Shown here: positions 31,491 through 55,348 of the stretch, piece after piece
Numbering within the stretch: position 1 is the stretch's first letter
How the letters are laid out: every line of letters starts with the position of its first letter
From: Intrasporangiaceae bacterium
GTDB taxonomy: Bacteria; Actinomycetota; Actinomycetes; Actinomycetales; Dermatophilaceae
NCBI GenBank assembly: GCA_021324575.1
Contig: JAJPIW010000099.1
Span: 1-64,000 of the forward strand
Direction of reading: 5' to 3'
Length of the DNA stretch: 64,000 nucleotides
The notes under the pieces: model-generated
Database searches by the model: none
Told to the model about the DNA's origin: nothing
The model's input: the letters and a program-made list of their open reading frames with translations, nothing else
Translations under genes and position numbers: made by a program

Positions 31491-32131
31491 CAGGCGTCGC
31501 CCTCCTCTGCTCGGGCCACATCGGCCGCGACGTCGGCCACTACCTCGGCCGCGACATACTCGCGCTGGGCCTCGGTGCCCGAGACCACCTTGCCCAGGTA
31601 GTAGTCCCGCTCCTCCAGGCCCGCGACCATCGGGTGCGGTGGCTGGACCATGCCCTCCTGGAGGGGGGCGAGCAGCTGGTCCTTGGTGAAGATCAGGTCA
31701 GCCCGGTTGTCGTCGGCCAGCTCGTAGAAGTTGGTCATCGTGAGAGCCCGGGTCGGGCAGGCCTCGATGCACAGGCCGCAGAAGATGCAGCGCAGGTAGT
31801 TGATCTGGTAGATCTTCCCGAACCGCTCGCCCGGGCTGAACCGCCCGGTGCCGCCGTCCTCGAACGGGGTGTCGTCGTTGCTGGCGCCCTCGACGAAGAT
31901 CGCGTCGGCCGGGCAGGCCCAGGCGCACAGCTCGCAGCCGACGCACTTCTCCAGGCCGTCGGGGTGCCGGTTGAGCTGGTGCCGGCCGTGGAAGCGCTTC
32001 TGGGTGGGGCGCTTCTCCTCGGGGTACTCCTCGGTGTAGACCTTCCGGAACATCGTCGCGAAGGTGACGCCGAAGCCGCCGACCGGGGCGAACAGGTCGG
32101 AGAAGAAGCCGGACTTGTTGTCCTCAGCCAT
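31490..32131 (-). CDS. nuoI: NADH-quinone oxidoreductase subunit I
   Basis: This 213-residue ferredoxin-like subunit binds two [4Fe-4S] clusters (N6a and N6b) through [12 protein letters not shown] and [16 protein letters not shown]. The ATG at 32131 lies eight bases inside the end of nuoH, with AGGAGG within nuoH as ribosome site. The C-terminus is alanine/valine rich and acidic. It relays electrons from NuoG towards NuoB. Confidence 0.95.
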
Positions 32132-33509
32132 GCTGGTCCTCCTTGCTCGTCAGGGTGGGGGTCGCGGCGGTGGCCGCTGGCTCACGCAGCCGCTGGCCGG
32201 GCAGCGGAGGGACGGGGAACCCTCCGGCATACGGGTCGACCTCATCGGGTCGTATGCCGGACTCGGCTGCCTTGGCCTCCTGCTTGCCCTCCCAGATCCA
32301 GGTCGCGAGCAGCGCGGTGGCGGCGACGACGACGATGAGGGCGAGGGTCGAGTAGGGAATCTCGCGGCCCAGGATGTGCAGCTTCGCGTCGCCGAGCCAG
32401 CCGTTGTTGGCCCCGCGGATGAAGGCGACGAGGACGACCCAGCCGAGGGTGACCGGGATGAGGAACTTCCAGCCGAAGCGCATGAACTGGTCGTAGCGGG
32501 TGCGGGGCAGCGAGCCGCGCAGCCAGACGAAGAAGAACATGAAGATCCAGAGCTTGATGGTGAACCAGAGGATGCCCCACCAGCCGTGGTTGAACATGCC
32601 GTCGTTGATCGCCGAGATGCCGGGAGGTGCCTGCCAGCCGCCGAGGAACATCGTGGTGGCCAGGGCCGCGACGGTGAACATGTTGACGTACTCGCCGAGG
32701 AAGAACATCGCGAACTTCAGCGAGGAGTACTCGGTGTGGAAGCCACCGGTCAGCTCGCCCTCGCCCTCGGCGAGGTCGAACGGGAGCCGGTTGGTCTCGC
32801 CGACCATGGTGATGACGTAGATGAAGAAGGAGAGGAACGCCGGGACGATGTGCCACAGCGACTTCTGCGCCGCGACGATGCCCGAGGTCGACATCGAGCC
32901 GGAGTAGAGGAAGACGGCGACGAGCGACAGGCCCATGGCGATCTCGTAGGAGATGACCTGAGCGGTCGAGCGGAGCCCACCGAGCAGGGGGTAGGTCGAG
33001 CCGGACGACCAGCCGGCCAGGACGATGCCGTAGACGCCGACGCCGGCGACGGCGAGGACGAGGAGCACCGCGACGGGCAGATCGGTGAGCTGTAGCGGGG
33101 TGAGGTGCCCGAACATCCACACCGACGGGCCGAGCGGCATGATCGCGAAGGACACAAAGGCCGCGGCCCCTGCGATGGCCGGGGCCGCCATGAACACGAT
33201 CTTGTCGGCGTTCTTGGGCGTCAGGTCTTCCTTGAGCGCCAGCTTCACGCCGTCGGCGAGGGTCTGGAGCAGGCCGAACGGGCCGGTCCGGTTCGGGCCG
33301 GGCCGCTGCTGCATCCGGCCGATGACGCGGCGCTCGAACCAGATGACGAGGAGCGTCGACACCAGCAGGTAGACGAAGATGAGCAGCGCCTTGGCGAGCG
33401 AGAGCCACCACGGGGTGTCGCTGAAGTCGGCCGTCGGGTTGCCGGTGCCACTGCCGCCGATCATCGGCACGTATGCCGGGAGCGCGGCGAGGGCGTGCAG
33501 GGCGCTCAT
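32124..33509 (-). CDS. nuoH: NADH-quinone oxidoreductase subunit H
   Basis: This 461-residue membrane subunit forms much of the quinone tunnel. Motifs include [66 protein letters not shown] and the late [17 protein letters not shown]. The C-terminal tail of about 60 residues is cytoplasmic and proline-rich, and its DNA contains a facing pair of the dispersed octamer. The ATG overlaps the nuoG stop (ATGA). Confidence 0.95.
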
Positions 33510-42077: not shown

Positions 42078-42200
42078 CGGCGAACAACTCCCCTTCCTGG
42101 ACGTGACGTGGCTCTCACTCTATTGCCCTCCGTATGCCGCGCGCAGAAGGGCCACGCGGGCCGGCCGGGGGCGCGACCGGACCACCCGGCATACGACGGA
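42078..42200. promoter_or_regulatory. nuo operon upstream region and menJ 3' region
   Basis: This 123-bp gap must hold the nuo promoter, read to the left. A possible -10 box is TAGAGT on the minus strand at 42117-42122, about 40 bases before the nuoA ATG; no clear -35 box is visible. Two facing copies of the octamer (42132-42139 and 42187-42194) can pair over nine bases and lie just downstream of the menJ stop. Confidence 0.35.
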
Positions 42201-44558: not shown

Positions 44559-45866
44559 ATGACCACGGTCCCGTCCCCCGGCGAGCCGGCACCCGCCGCG
44601 CTGCCCGATCACGCCCCGCTCGTCGTCCGCACGGTCCGGCTGCCACCGGCCACCGCGGCGGCGCTGCTCACCCTGCTGCCTGCCCTTCCTCCGACCCAGC
44701 TGTCGTCGTGGGTACGCCGCGGCGAAGGAGTCGTCGGCTGGGGCCGCGCCGCCGAGTTCGCCTCGTCCGGCCCCGAGCGGTTCGCCGACGCCGAACGCTG
44801 GTGGCGGGCCACCGCCTCGGCCGCGGTGGTTCGCAACGAGGTCGGCGGCAGCGGGACCGGCCCGGTCGCCTTCGGGTCGTTCTCGTATGCCGCGGACTCA
44901 CCAGCCGGGGCTGTCCTCGTCGTGCCTGAGGTCGTCGTCGGCCTGCGCGGCAACACGGCCTGGCTGACGACCGTGGCACGCGGAGCCGGCCTCCCGGGAA
45001 CGGTGAGCGTCCAGCCGACCGAGGCGCCGACGGCTCCACGGGACGTCGCCTTCGCCGACGGCTCCCGCTCCGCCGCCGAGTGGGAGGTCGTCGTCGCCGA
45101 GGCCGTCGAGCGGATCAACGGCGGCAGCCTGGACAAGGTCGTCCTGGCCCGTGACCTCGAGGCCGACGCGGCCGAGCCGATCGATGCCCGTTGGCTGCTC
45201 CAACGCCTCGGTGAGCGCTACGACAACACGTGGGTCTTCGCCGTCGACGGTCTCGTGGGCGCGACACCGGAGCTCCTCGTCCGCCTCGAACGCGGCCTGG
45301 TCACCTCCCGCGTCCTCGCCGGCACGATCCGCCGGACCGGGGACGACGACCACGACCTGGCCCTGGCCGGCTCGCTCGCCCGCTCCTCCAAGGACCTCGA
45401 GGAGCACGAGTACGCCGTCCGCTCGGTCGCCGAGGCGCTCCGCCCGCACTGCTCGTCCATGAACGTGCCGGAGTCGCCGTTCGTGCTCCACCTCACCAAC
45501 GTCATGCACCTGGCAACCGACGTCGCGGGGGTGCTGTCCGACGACACGACCTCGCTCGGGCTCGCGGCCTCGCTCCACCCGTCCGCCGCGGTGTGCGGAA
45601 CCCCCACAGCTGTCGCGGATGCGCTCATCACCGAGCTCGAAGGCATGGACCGCGGCCGGTATGCCGGTCCGGTCGGCTGGCTCGACGCCAGTGGCGACGG
45701 CGAGTGGGGCATCGCCCTGCGCTGCGCGGCATACGACACCGGCGACTCCCGCCGTCTCCGTCTCTTTGCCGGATGCGGCATCGTCGCGGGGTCCGACCCG
45801 GAGGCCGAGGTCGCCGAGTCCGACGCCAAGCTGGTCCCGATGCGGGACGCCCTCAGCGCGTCCTGA
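44559..45866 (+). CDS. menF: Isochorismate synthase
   Basis: This 435-residue chorismate-binding enzyme converts chorismate to isochorismate, the first menaquinone step. The C-terminal catalytic domain includes [56 protein letters not shown], and the late [10 protein letters not shown] and [24 protein letters not shown] with Mg2+-binding glutamates. It could instead be an EntC/DhbC-type enzyme for siderophores, but the men context decides. Its 3' end overlaps the convergent menD gene by 14 bp. Confidence 0.9.
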
Positions 45867-53647: not shown

Positions 53648-53902
53648 ATGCGAACGACGGTCACCATCCCCGACGACCTTCTGCGCGAGGCCAAGGTGCT
53701 GGCAGCCCGGGAGGACCGCACCGTCAGCAGCGTGCTCGAGCAGGCACTTCGAGCCCTTCTCACCGAGGCGGCGGAGGCCGACGAGCGCAGGCGGGCCGAG
53801 TTCACGCTGCCAGTCATCCACGGTGGCGGATGGCTGGTCGACCTCGACGACAAGGAGGCCCTCGCTGAGGCTTTGGGCGACAACGAGCCGCCATGGCGGT
53901 GA
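53648..53902 (+). CDS. vapB: Antitoxin of VapBC pair (ribbon-helix-helix)
   Basis: This 84-residue protein starts with a ribbon-helix-helix domain: the strand MRTTVTIPDD, then helix LLREAKVLAAREDRTVSSVLEQALRALLTEA. It is followed by a charged region and a C-terminal toxin-binding tail rich in Trp, Asp and Glu. It should bind VapC and, as a complex, the palindromes just upstream. It overlaps vapC by ten bases. Confidence 0.88.
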   Translation: MRTTVTIPDDLLREAKVLAAREDRTVSSVLEQALRALLTEAAEADERRRAEFTLPVIHGGGWLVDLDDKEALAEALGDNEPPWR

Positions 53903-54327
53903 TTCTTGATGTCAACGTGTTCGTGTACGCCCTGGACGCCGACAGCCCGCATCACAGGCAAGCGCGGGCCTCTCTCTCCGGCGCGCTCACCGGGGACGAT
54001 CCCGCCCTCCTGCTCGAAGAGACGCTGGTAGCGACCGCCCGGGTCATCACCCACCCACGCGTGCTGCGTTCACCGGCCACGCCGGCCACCGCGATGGCGA
54101 TGATGGAGATCATCCGTGACGCCCCGAACGCGACCCTCCTTGTGCCACACCCTGGGACGTGGCACCGGTTTGCCCAGACCGTGCAGGACTTGGGTCTGGC
54201 CGGCACCGATGTCCCTGATGCCTGGCTGGCAGCGGTGGCCGTCGAGCACGACGCCACGTTTGTCACGTTCGACCGCGGCTTCCGCCGGTTCCCCGGACTG
54301 CGCCTCGAGCTGCTCGGTTCGGGCTGA
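53893..54327 (+). CDS. vapC: PIN-domain ribonuclease toxin VapC
   Basis: This 144-residue PIN protein has the acidic residues expected for the Mg2+ site: Asp6 in ILDVNVFVYALD, Glu43-44 in LLLEETLVA, Asp in TDVPDAWLAAVA and Asp in TFDRGFRRF. The family cleaves tRNA or rRNA. It follows its antitoxin gene with overlap. A hairpin made of two facing octamers lies ten bases after the stop. Confidence 0.9.
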   Translation: MAVILDVNVFVYALDADSPHHRQARASLSGALTGDDPALLLEETLVATARVITHPRVLRSPATPATAMAMMEIIRDAPNATLLVPHPGTWHRFAQTVQDLGLAGTDVPDAWLAAVAVEHDATFVTFDRGFRRFPGLRLELLGSG

Positions 54328-54337
54328 GGCGCGCGAC

Positions 54338-54362
54338 CGGCATACGACCTGCTCGTATGCCG
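54338..54362. terminator. Hairpin built from two facing GTATGCCG octamers
   Basis: CGGCATACGA (54338-54347) and TCGTATGCCG (54353-54362) form a perfect ten-bp stem with loop CCTGC, ten bases after the vapC stop and upstream of the menB promoter. No T-run follows, as is common in GC-rich actinobacteria. Confidence 0.65.
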
Positions 54363-54387
54363 CGCGGCCGGCTGCACACGACCGCGT

Positions 54388-54393
54388 TAGTCT
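54388..54393 (+). promoter_or_regulatory. Leaderless -10 box of menB
   Basis: TAGTCT ends seven bases before the menB GTG. The intervening bases are pyrimidine-rich with no ribosome site. Confidence 0.5.
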
Positions 54394-54400
54394 CCCCAGC

Positions 54401-55348
54401 GTGAGTGCACTGCCTGGCGTGAGCGAGACCTTCGACCCCGACGCGTGGGACGAGGTGCCCGGCTTCGAGGACCTCACCGACCTCACCTACCACCGCGCGC
54501 GCGGCCTCGGCGCGGTGCGGATCGCCTTCGACCGGCCCGAGGTGCTCAACGCGTTCCGGCCGCATACGGTCGACGAGCTGTACCGGACCCTCGACCACGC
54601 CCGTCGCACCCCCGACGTCGGCGCCGTCCTGCTCACCGGCAACGGCCCTACCCCTCGCGAGGGGCAGTCCGCGACGACGAACGGATGGGCGTTCTGCACC
54701 GGAGGCGACCAGCGGATCCGCGGCCGCAGCGGCTACCAGTACGCCGACGGCACCACCGCCGACACCGTCGACGAGCGCCGGGTCAAGGCCGAGGGCGGCC
54801 GACTGCACATCCTGGAGGTCCAGCGCCTGATCCGGACCATGCCCAAGGTCGTCATCGCAGTCGTGGGCGGGTGGGCGGCCGGCGGCGGCCACTCCCTGCA
54901 CGTCGTCTGCGACCTCACGATCGCCAGCCGGGAGAACGCCCGGTTCAAGCAGACCGACGCCGACGTGGGCTCCTTCGACGCCGGCTACGGGAGCGCCTAC
55001 CTGGCCAAGATGGTCGGCCAGAAGTTCGCCCGCGAGATCTTCTTCCTCGGCCGCGCCTACACCGCCGAGGACATGCATCGGATGGGCGCGGTCAACCTGG
55101 TCGCGGACCACGCCGACCTGGAGGCCACCGCGCTGGAGGTCGCCCGCGAGATCATGGGCAAGTCGCCGCAGGCCCAGCGGATGCTCAAGTTCGCGTTCAA
55201 CCTGCTCGACGACGGGCTCATGGGCCAGCAGGTCTTCGCCGGCGAGGCCACCCGCCTGGCCTACATGACCGACGAGGCCGTCGAGGGCCGCGACCAGTTC
55301 CTCGAGAAGCGAGACCCCGACTGGTCACCTTTTCCCTGGTACTTCTGA
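54401..55348 (+). CDS. menB: 1,4-Dihydroxy-2-naphthoyl-CoA synthase
   Basis: This 315-residue crotonase-fold enzyme cyclises o-succinylbenzoyl-CoA. It has VRIAFDRPEVLNAFRP, the GGDQRIRGRSGYQY oxyanion and active-site segment, VGGWAAGGGHSLHVVCDLTIAS, and ADVGSFDAGYGSAYLAKMVGQKFAREIFFLG with the catalytic Asp/Tyr region. It ends with DPDWSPFPWYF, a near-universal MenB ending. The open frame begins far upstream in vapC, but the GTG at 54401 has a TAGTCT box seven bases ahead. Confidence 0.95.
   Translation: MSALPGVSETFDPDAWDEVPGFEDLTDLTYHRARGLGAVRIAFDRPEVLNAFRPHTVDELYRTLDHARRTPDVGAVLLTGNGPTPREGQSATTNGWAFCTGGDQRIRGRSGYQYADGTTADTVDERRVKAEGGRLHILEVQRLIRTMPKVVIAVVGGWAAGGGHSLHVVCDLTIASRENARFKQTDADVGSFDAGYGSAYLAKMVGQKFAREIFFLGRAYTAEDMHRMGAVNLVADHADLEATALEVAREIMGKSPQAQRMLKFAFNLLDDGLMGQQVFAGEATRLAYMTDEAVEGRDQFLEKRDPDWSPFPWYF

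Follow-up and report, generated by a model that had tools for sequence, protein, structure and literature searches.

The hairpin described here lies at a gene end on the forward strand of a 64,000-nucleotide stretch of actinobacterial DNA, referred to below as the window. It follows an antitoxin-like gene and the toxin gene vapC, and precedes menB. Its arms are built from two facing copies of GTATGCCG, a recurrent 8-mer (hereafter the word) that occurs 73 times in the window and has an extended 9-mer form, CGTATGCCG, in its own genome. The features concerned, including three further inverted pairs of the word, are the following:

53648-53902, forward strand: vapB-like gene for an RHH antitoxin-like protein, upstream of vapC (Pfam RHH_1, E 7.9e-6, 26.1 bits, cut-off 20.5)
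53893-54327, forward strand: vapC, PIN-domain toxin gene (TIGR00028 VapC family, 120.9 bits, cut-off 73.6)
54338-54362, forward strand: vapC pair, order CGGCATAC..GTATGCCG, 10-bp perfect stem, 5-base loop
54419-55348, forward strand: menB, following vapC on its strand in the predicted gene order (NF006186 1,4-dihydroxy-2-naphthoyl-CoA synthase, 547.7 bits, cut-off 378)
42132-42194, reverse strand: menJ pair, GTATGCCG at 42132-42139 and CGGCATAC at 42187-42194, 47-base gap
32225-32259, reverse strand: nuoH pair, CGGCATAC at 32225-32232 and GTATGCCG at 32252-32259, 11-bp arms
45659-45734, no strand assigned: fourth close inverted pair, order GTATGCCG..CGGCATAC, gap exactly 60

The vapC hairpin begins at the eleventh base past the vapC stop codon (54325-54327), and 56 bases separate it from menB. 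It consists of CGGCATACGA at 54338-54347, the loop CCTGC, and TCGTATGCCG at 54353-54362, and flanking GC pairs lengthen the 10-bp stem. The predicted fold of positions 54325-54375 has an energy of -28.1 kcal/mol (z -2.58), and none of 200 shuffled sequences was as stable. A terminator scan of positions 53800-54900 returned nothing at this hairpin, and a canonical U-tailed terminator was rejected on that basis. The pair probably forms a hairpin at the 3′ end of the vapC transcript.

The original prediction had placed facing pairs after vapC, after menJ and within the tail of nuoH, and had regarded all three as terminator-like hairpins. The pairs themselves are present at each of the three places, with the five-base loop and ten-bp perfect stem at vapC, the 11-bp arms at nuoH, and only 6 bases between the menJ stop and its pair, which precedes nuoA. 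The hairpin role is convincing at vapC, weak at menJ and unsupported at nuoH. The nuoH pair falls within the coding sequence of its gene (minus strand, 32124-33509), about 100 bases ahead of the stop, and is not a terminator candidate for that reason, its stable fold notwithstanding (z -2.95, 1 of 200 shuffles as stable). The menJ pair, which has the opposite word order to those of vapC and nuoH, is a weak hairpin candidate: its fold is unremarkable (z -0.33, 66 of 200 shuffles as stable), and in none of 26 family loci compared (out of 80) do the 170 bases past the MenJ match contain a word pair, the one single word found there being in Intrasporangium calvum. A terminator conserved between menJ and nuoA was rejected on the same count. 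Thus, among the three pairs, that of vapC alone is a convincing gene-end hairpin. Together with the fourth, the window contains four pairs with a gap of at most 60 bases, all of them inverted, an outcome expected by orientation alone in 1 of 16 cases.

The name menJ comes from a top-scoring match that stays under its cut-off (242.9 of 700 bits), while a geranylgeranyl reductase family scores over its cut-off. By MenJ, the closest relatives, Terrabacter, Humibacillus and Lapillicoccus among them, are 76-79% identical over the best segment, and on this basis the organism falls within the Dermatophilaceae/Intrasporangiaceae. The gap between menJ and nuoA in the 26 family loci (among L123-L163) contains CCTAGGAT in 17 of 26 cases and TAGGAT in 21 of 26, and the former is perhaps a nuo promoter. 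The corresponding part of the window (42078-42200) has the word pair and no CCTAGGAT-type element.

The own genome is assembled in 103 contigs totalling 4.24 Mb. An initial 727-kb sample contains 727 copies of GTATGCCG where a trinucleotide model predicts about 18 (an enrichment of about 40-fold), and 498 copies of CGTATGCCG where it predicts 7. Genome-wide, CGTATGCCG occurs 1602 times on the forward and 1616 times on the reverse strand, or once per ~1.3 kb, and counts of the word on the two strands are also near-equal on 11 long contigs. Hundreds to thousands of copies at about one per kb, equally divided between strands, is the pattern of an uptake sequence. Among 1634 copies, no base exceeds about half beyond some two positions on each side of the 8-mer. 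Literature searches found no earlier report of this word, which does not prove its absence from print.

The word is limited to part of one family. Ninety-seven genomes were searched, 59 from the same family and 38 from the order outside it. At least 50 9-mers per Mb are found in 31 of the 59 family genomes and at most 25 in the other 28, three of which (G016, G019 and G048) are intermediate at 20-25; the threshold of 50 was chosen after the gap between 25 and 57 was visible. In the 38 genomes outside the family, 9-mer counts are about those of a reversed control word. Among named loci of 4-21 kb, the word is frequent in Terrabacter, Knoellia, Phycicoccus, Intrasporangium, Serinicoccus, Tetrasphaera and others, and is absent from each of the seven Janibacter loci and from Austwickia, Agilicoccus and Ornithinicoccus; a 13-kb Humibacillus contig likewise has none. 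The base preceding the core is C in 67% of the 1634 copies of the own genome and 52% of 27 in Terrabacter, and G in 60% of 356 copies in genome G043 and 77% of 43 in Serinicoccus. Restriction to a clade, with variants and losses, is again as in uptake sequences. In all 31 word-rich family genomes, close inverted pairs outnumber same-strand ones (1751 against 350 in sum).

Genes were called with a simple codon-score finder made for this analysis, on own-genome stretches totalling 1.52 of the 4.24 Mb, some of whose contigs were chosen after pair lists had been seen. Three other genomes were also selected, G043 for having the most pairs in one order and G021 and G017 for many words and pairs. Predicted genes make up 87% of the 1.52-Mb sample and contain 83% of the word copies, mostly in frames that read Tyr-Ala or Ala-Tyr, so that density is 1.45 words per kb in intergenic sequence and 1.02 in genes. 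Density is highest just past stop codons, where three consecutive 25-base bins starting at the stop hold 3.20, 2.51 and 1.90 words per kb compared to 1.11 overall, i.e., 1.7-2.9 times denser over the first 75 bases. The same 75 bases hold 2.36 words per kb in G021 (vs 0.69), 1.63 in G017 (vs 0.72) and 1.09 in the named word-positive loci (vs 0.54). Within genes, frame preference is strong: of 1311 copies lying within a single gene, 603 read xxG TAT GCC Gxx and 452 read xCG GCA TAC.

Inverted pairs can take two orders, termed A (GTATGCCG..CGGCATAC, as at menJ) and B (CGGCATAC..GTATGCCG, as at vapC and nuoH). Genome-wide, 7-mer cores 2-32 bases apart form 90 B, 80 A and 36 same-strand pairs, where density alone predicts about 40, 40 and 81. 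Placement was then modelled over 1.24 Mb by redistributing words at random within coding or intergenic sequence in 200 runs. This simulation used 31 of 40 segments; seven segments picked for their pairs, a plasmid-like contig and an all-N contig were dropped, and whole long contigs that had appeared in pair lists were retained. At gaps of at most 40 bases, intergenic sequence contains 16 A pairs (4.6 expected) and 11 B pairs (4.3 expected), neither number being reached in any of the 200 runs, and 10 same-strand pairs (8.5 expected). Intergenic inverted pairs are therefore about three-fold over random placement and same-strand pairs are not. In coding sequence, the corresponding numbers are 15 A pairs (12.3 expected), 22 B pairs (12.7 expected, 3 of 200 runs as high) and 4 same-strand pairs (26.2 expected), so order B, the order of the vapC pair, is in excess there too.

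The intergenic inverted pairs lie after genes. For this and the analyses of post-stop density, flank pairing and hairpin share, all segments were used. A stop codon is found within 150 bases upstream of 40 of the 45 pairs, and 41 pairs lie in gaps that contain a stop, compared to 3 in head-to-head, promoter-only gaps (one segment-edge case dropped). For single words the numbers are 195 and 70 (20 edge cases dropped), which means that inverted pairs avoid head-to-head gaps relative to single words (Fisher P 0.0035). Both orders peak 25-50 bases past stops, at about 8 and 12 times mean density, in agreement with the original prediction that facing pairs would be commoner there than elsewhere. 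Same-strand pairs also rise about 12-fold after stops, because single words are denser there.

The strongest single result comes from the bases next to the word. Stems of at least 12 bp occur in 13 of 24 intergenic A pairs compared to 3 of 35 coding ones, and in 5 of 21 intergenic B pairs compared to 2 of 34 coding ones. In a swap test, the four bases flanking the word were scored for pairing with their true partner and with partners taken from other loci. The inner flanks of intergenic A pairs are paired at 0.71, against 0.47 when swapped (19 pairs, 0 of 2000 shuffles as high), and those of intergenic B pairs at 0.60 against 0.44 (15 pairs, 2 of 2000). Coding pairs give no such difference (A 0.34 vs 0.35, 32 pairs; B 0.35 vs 0.38, 26 pairs). 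The outer four bases pair beyond the swapped level in intergenic A pairs (0.57 vs 0.41, 6 of 2000) and no better than swapped in intergenic B pairs (0.32 vs 0.38). In G043, whose close pairs number 210 A, 44 B and 19 same-strand genome-wide, order A gives 0.86 against 0.51 (28 pairs, 0 of 2000), and coding B pairs give 0.45 against 0.28 (209 of 2000), these being 5 pairs and too few to judge. Intergenic A pairs in G021, only six in number, give 0.83 against 0.58 (39 of 2000).

Part of the strong hairpins at gene ends contain the word. Where 40 or more free bases follow a gene, a perfect stem of at least 9 bp occurs at 90 of 661 gene ends in the own genome (5 in shuffles), and 17 of these 90 contain the word, 16 of them in both arms, a share that includes stretches picked for holding pairs. 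In G043, 57 of 196 gene ends qualify (1 in shuffles), and 28 of the 57 hairpins contain the word, 27 in both arms. The fraction is 6 of 22 in G021 and 2 of 9 in G017, and the word is in none of four strong hairpins in the pooled named word-positive loci or of four in word-negative family loci. Inverted pairs within gene-end hairpins are a further trait of uptake sequences. The word hairpins of G043 (loci L204-L223) mostly share a single order, have some 13-21 bases between the two words, and are often followed by a pyrimidine-rich stretch.

These elements have the GC-rich stem-loop shortly past a stop that marks intrinsic terminators, and in the own genome they have no U-rich tail: the T fraction over the 12 bases after 36 hairpins is 0.174, compared to an intergenic mean of 0.161. 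In G043 there is a mild enrichment (0.219 vs 0.149, 27 hairpins). Gene-end hairpins without a U-tail are described as the rule in Mycobacterium tuberculosis and also occur in Streptomyces (PMC8355165). The data are compatible with termination, with pausing that aids Rho, or with protection of the 3′ end; we favour termination or 3′-end definition as the probable role. A hairpin of this kind may stop RNA polymerase itself or may protect the 3′ end after Rho-dependent release.

A second signal extends well beyond the reach of a hairpin. Around a given copy of GTATGCCG, the own-genome sample (1.24-1.34 Mb) shows a shortage of further copies on the same strand up to a distance of about 800 bp, and no shortage of copies on the opposite strand. 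The same-strand share is 10/52 at gaps of 61-99 bases, 94/277 at 100-299, 86/267 at 300-499 and 158/408 at 500-799, all four being lower than in any of the 300 strand permutations; it is 309/648 at 800-1199 (43 of 300 permutations as low) and normal at 1200-1999 (700/1405). Pooled over 74 control 8-mers that share no 5-mer with the 9-mer, the same-strand fraction is 0.51-0.58 at all gaps, and at gaps of 60-799 the lowest single control reaches 0.449 compared to 0.348 for the word. The other sets are similar at gaps of 60-499 (G043 19/88, G021 5/19, G017 8/31, named loci 11/43), and at 500-999 the shares are 11/38 in G021, 8/31 in G017 and 29/58 in the named loci. For words in the same gene, the same-strand share goes from 0/19 to 64/164 and 38/111. 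Tyr-Ala/Ala-Tyr dipeptides show no comparable trend (same-order fractions 0.38-0.54 over eight gap bins), and an explanation of the genic inverted bias at the level of protein sequence was rejected on this evidence. Within genes, the inverted bias is mainly a shortage of same-strand neighbours, beyond hairpin scale. Hairpins thus do not account for the whole of the inverted bias, which persists in genes and to about 800 bp.

It might be argued from this depletion that hairpins are irrelevant: same-strand copies would repel one another over ~800 bp, as might happen if uptake ran in one direction from each word and made another copy on that strand superfluous, and close neighbours would be inverted by default. 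The permutation and control results, the dipeptide comparison, the like pattern in G043 and the shortage of close coding same-strand pairs (4 where 26 are expected) all fit such repulsion. It leaves unexplained the intergenic excess of inverted pairs over random placement, the pairing of their flanks, and the undepleted state of close intergenic same-strand pairs. We therefore regard repulsion as a second signal that overlaps with the hairpin explanation and does not supplant it, and consider it distinctly unlikely as the sole explanation. The depletion would fit an uptake signal that works in one direction and gains nothing from another same-strand copy within about 1 kb. In Neisseria, the distance between words has been described as close to recombination-tract length (PMC2397512), and the +- preference in Pasteurellaceae, which concerns the two inverted orders and not same-strand copies, is reported to vanish past about 30 bases (PMC1852404).

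The nature of the word itself allows other readings. It might be the binding site of a protein that organises, repairs or modifies the chromosome, with the gene-end pairs as incidental palindromes. In favour of such a site, competence genes do not track the word across the 97 genomes: ComEC is found in 91 of them, with or without the word, and PilT scores over its cut-off in 17, of which 16 are outside the family and one is in it, so that no link to a PilT-type pilus was found. Moreover, literature searches turned up no uptake assay for this clade. A protein site is harder to reconcile with near-equal strand counts, one 9-mer per ~1.3 kb, a flank preference that varies between genera, and flank pairing in intergenic but not coding pairs. 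The word is also nearly absent from C16, a 100-kb own-genome contig with plasmid-type genes, which has 6 copies compared to about 108 expected from the sample mean, although this contig could be a contaminant. On balance we judge a protein site fairly unlikely. Chi and FtsK-orienting words are not known for near-equal strand counts, and a polar word of either type was rejected on the counts from the 11 long contigs. REP and MITE-type elements typically show inverted repeats after genes, as seen here, and the pairs might be remnants of such a larger repeat. No conserved unit longer than the stem word was found, as the flanks past ~2 bases are unconserved; in addition, most copies are coding and in preferred reading frames, and stems and loops vary between loci. 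This origin was rejected as extremely improbable. The density and symmetry of the word, its clade limits with dialects, its enrichment in spacers at gene ends and its near absence from C16 lead us to lean towards a DNA-uptake signal.

Contig C16 (loci L019 and L025-L028) has a lower GC content, a TrwC relaxase and a weak match to a ParB-type domain, below its cut-off. It is perhaps a conjugative plasmid, an island or a contaminant.

The uptake reading has precedents. In Neisseria and Pasteurellaceae, paired uptake sequences (GCCGTCTGAA and AAGTGCGGT, respectively) are reported within Rho-independent terminators, with the uptake word in 54-57% and 16-29% of terminators under a definition based on T-tails (Kingsford et al. 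2007, PMC1852404). As described there, these systems resemble the present one in that a short word is highly abundant, forms close inverted pairs past gene ends and seldom lies in close same-strand pairs. The parallel drawn in the original prediction is even roughly quantitative, with 16-57% of hairpins containing the word in those groups and 16/90 and 27/57 here, a loose comparison given that hairpin definitions differ. The differences are the other phylum, the unrelated word, the absence of a U-tail in the own genome, and same-strand depletion extending to ~800 bp. Intragenic pairs are also more prominent, with 69 close inverted coding pairs (gap at most 60) in the own sample compared to 3 intragenic hairpins reported for N. 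meningitidis Z2491. A paper published later still calls the terminator role of uptake words contentious, because many are intragenic (PMC2346458).

The Neisseriaceae DUS dialects are likewise described as a family-wide word with lineage variants, absent in some members and found in inverted pairs; transformation effects and the binding protein ComP have been linked to them experimentally, whereas the present word is known from sequence alone (Frye et al. 2013, PMC3630211). Hairpins in M. tuberculosis and Streptomyces similarly lie close past stops without poly-U, the difference being that part of the stems here are made of one recurring word (PMC8355165). The nearest known machinery is the Flp-pilus-dependent transformation of Micrococcus luteus, also an actinobacterium, in a paper whose main text has no occurrence of "uptake sequence" or "uptake signal" (PMC4322843).

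The following route is likely, the vapC hairpin included. The word would be a genome-wide signal, most likely for DNA uptake, and uptake would have been its first job. Two inverted copies within a few tens of bases after a gene would provide ready complementary arms, and selection would extend the stem by matching flanks and keep it as a transcript 3′ end. Flank pairing was presumably made by selection rather than by mutation; template-switch mutation could be an alternative source of paired arms. The vapC hairpin would be one such element, probably separating vapBC from menB. The original interpretation is thus partly supported: sequence statistics support the hairpin mechanism well as a probable account of pairs after genes, not of all pairs.

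These elements are probably the actinobacterial counterpart, arrived at by convergence, of uptake-word terminators. To our knowledge, Neisseriaceae and Pasteurellaceae are the only groups for which uptake words that double in terminators have been described. Were a Gram-positive phylum to provide a third case, independent of those two, this would suggest a general route linking both roles, in which an abundant word supplies hairpin arms ready-made, and sequence-specific transformation could then be studied in actinobacteria. If it arises from uptake, the ~800-bp same-strand repulsion would provide a genome-only readout of polarity and reach. More tentatively, and as a proposal we hold with some doubt, Dermatophilaceae may have independently evolved a polar self-recognition word for uptake, spaced separately on each strand at ~1 kb, whose pairs after genes were co-opted as terminators free of a U-tail and reach a Neisseria-like share in some genera. 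In one further genome, G033, GTATGCC is also found in short tandem arrays with a period of 7 on two contigs.
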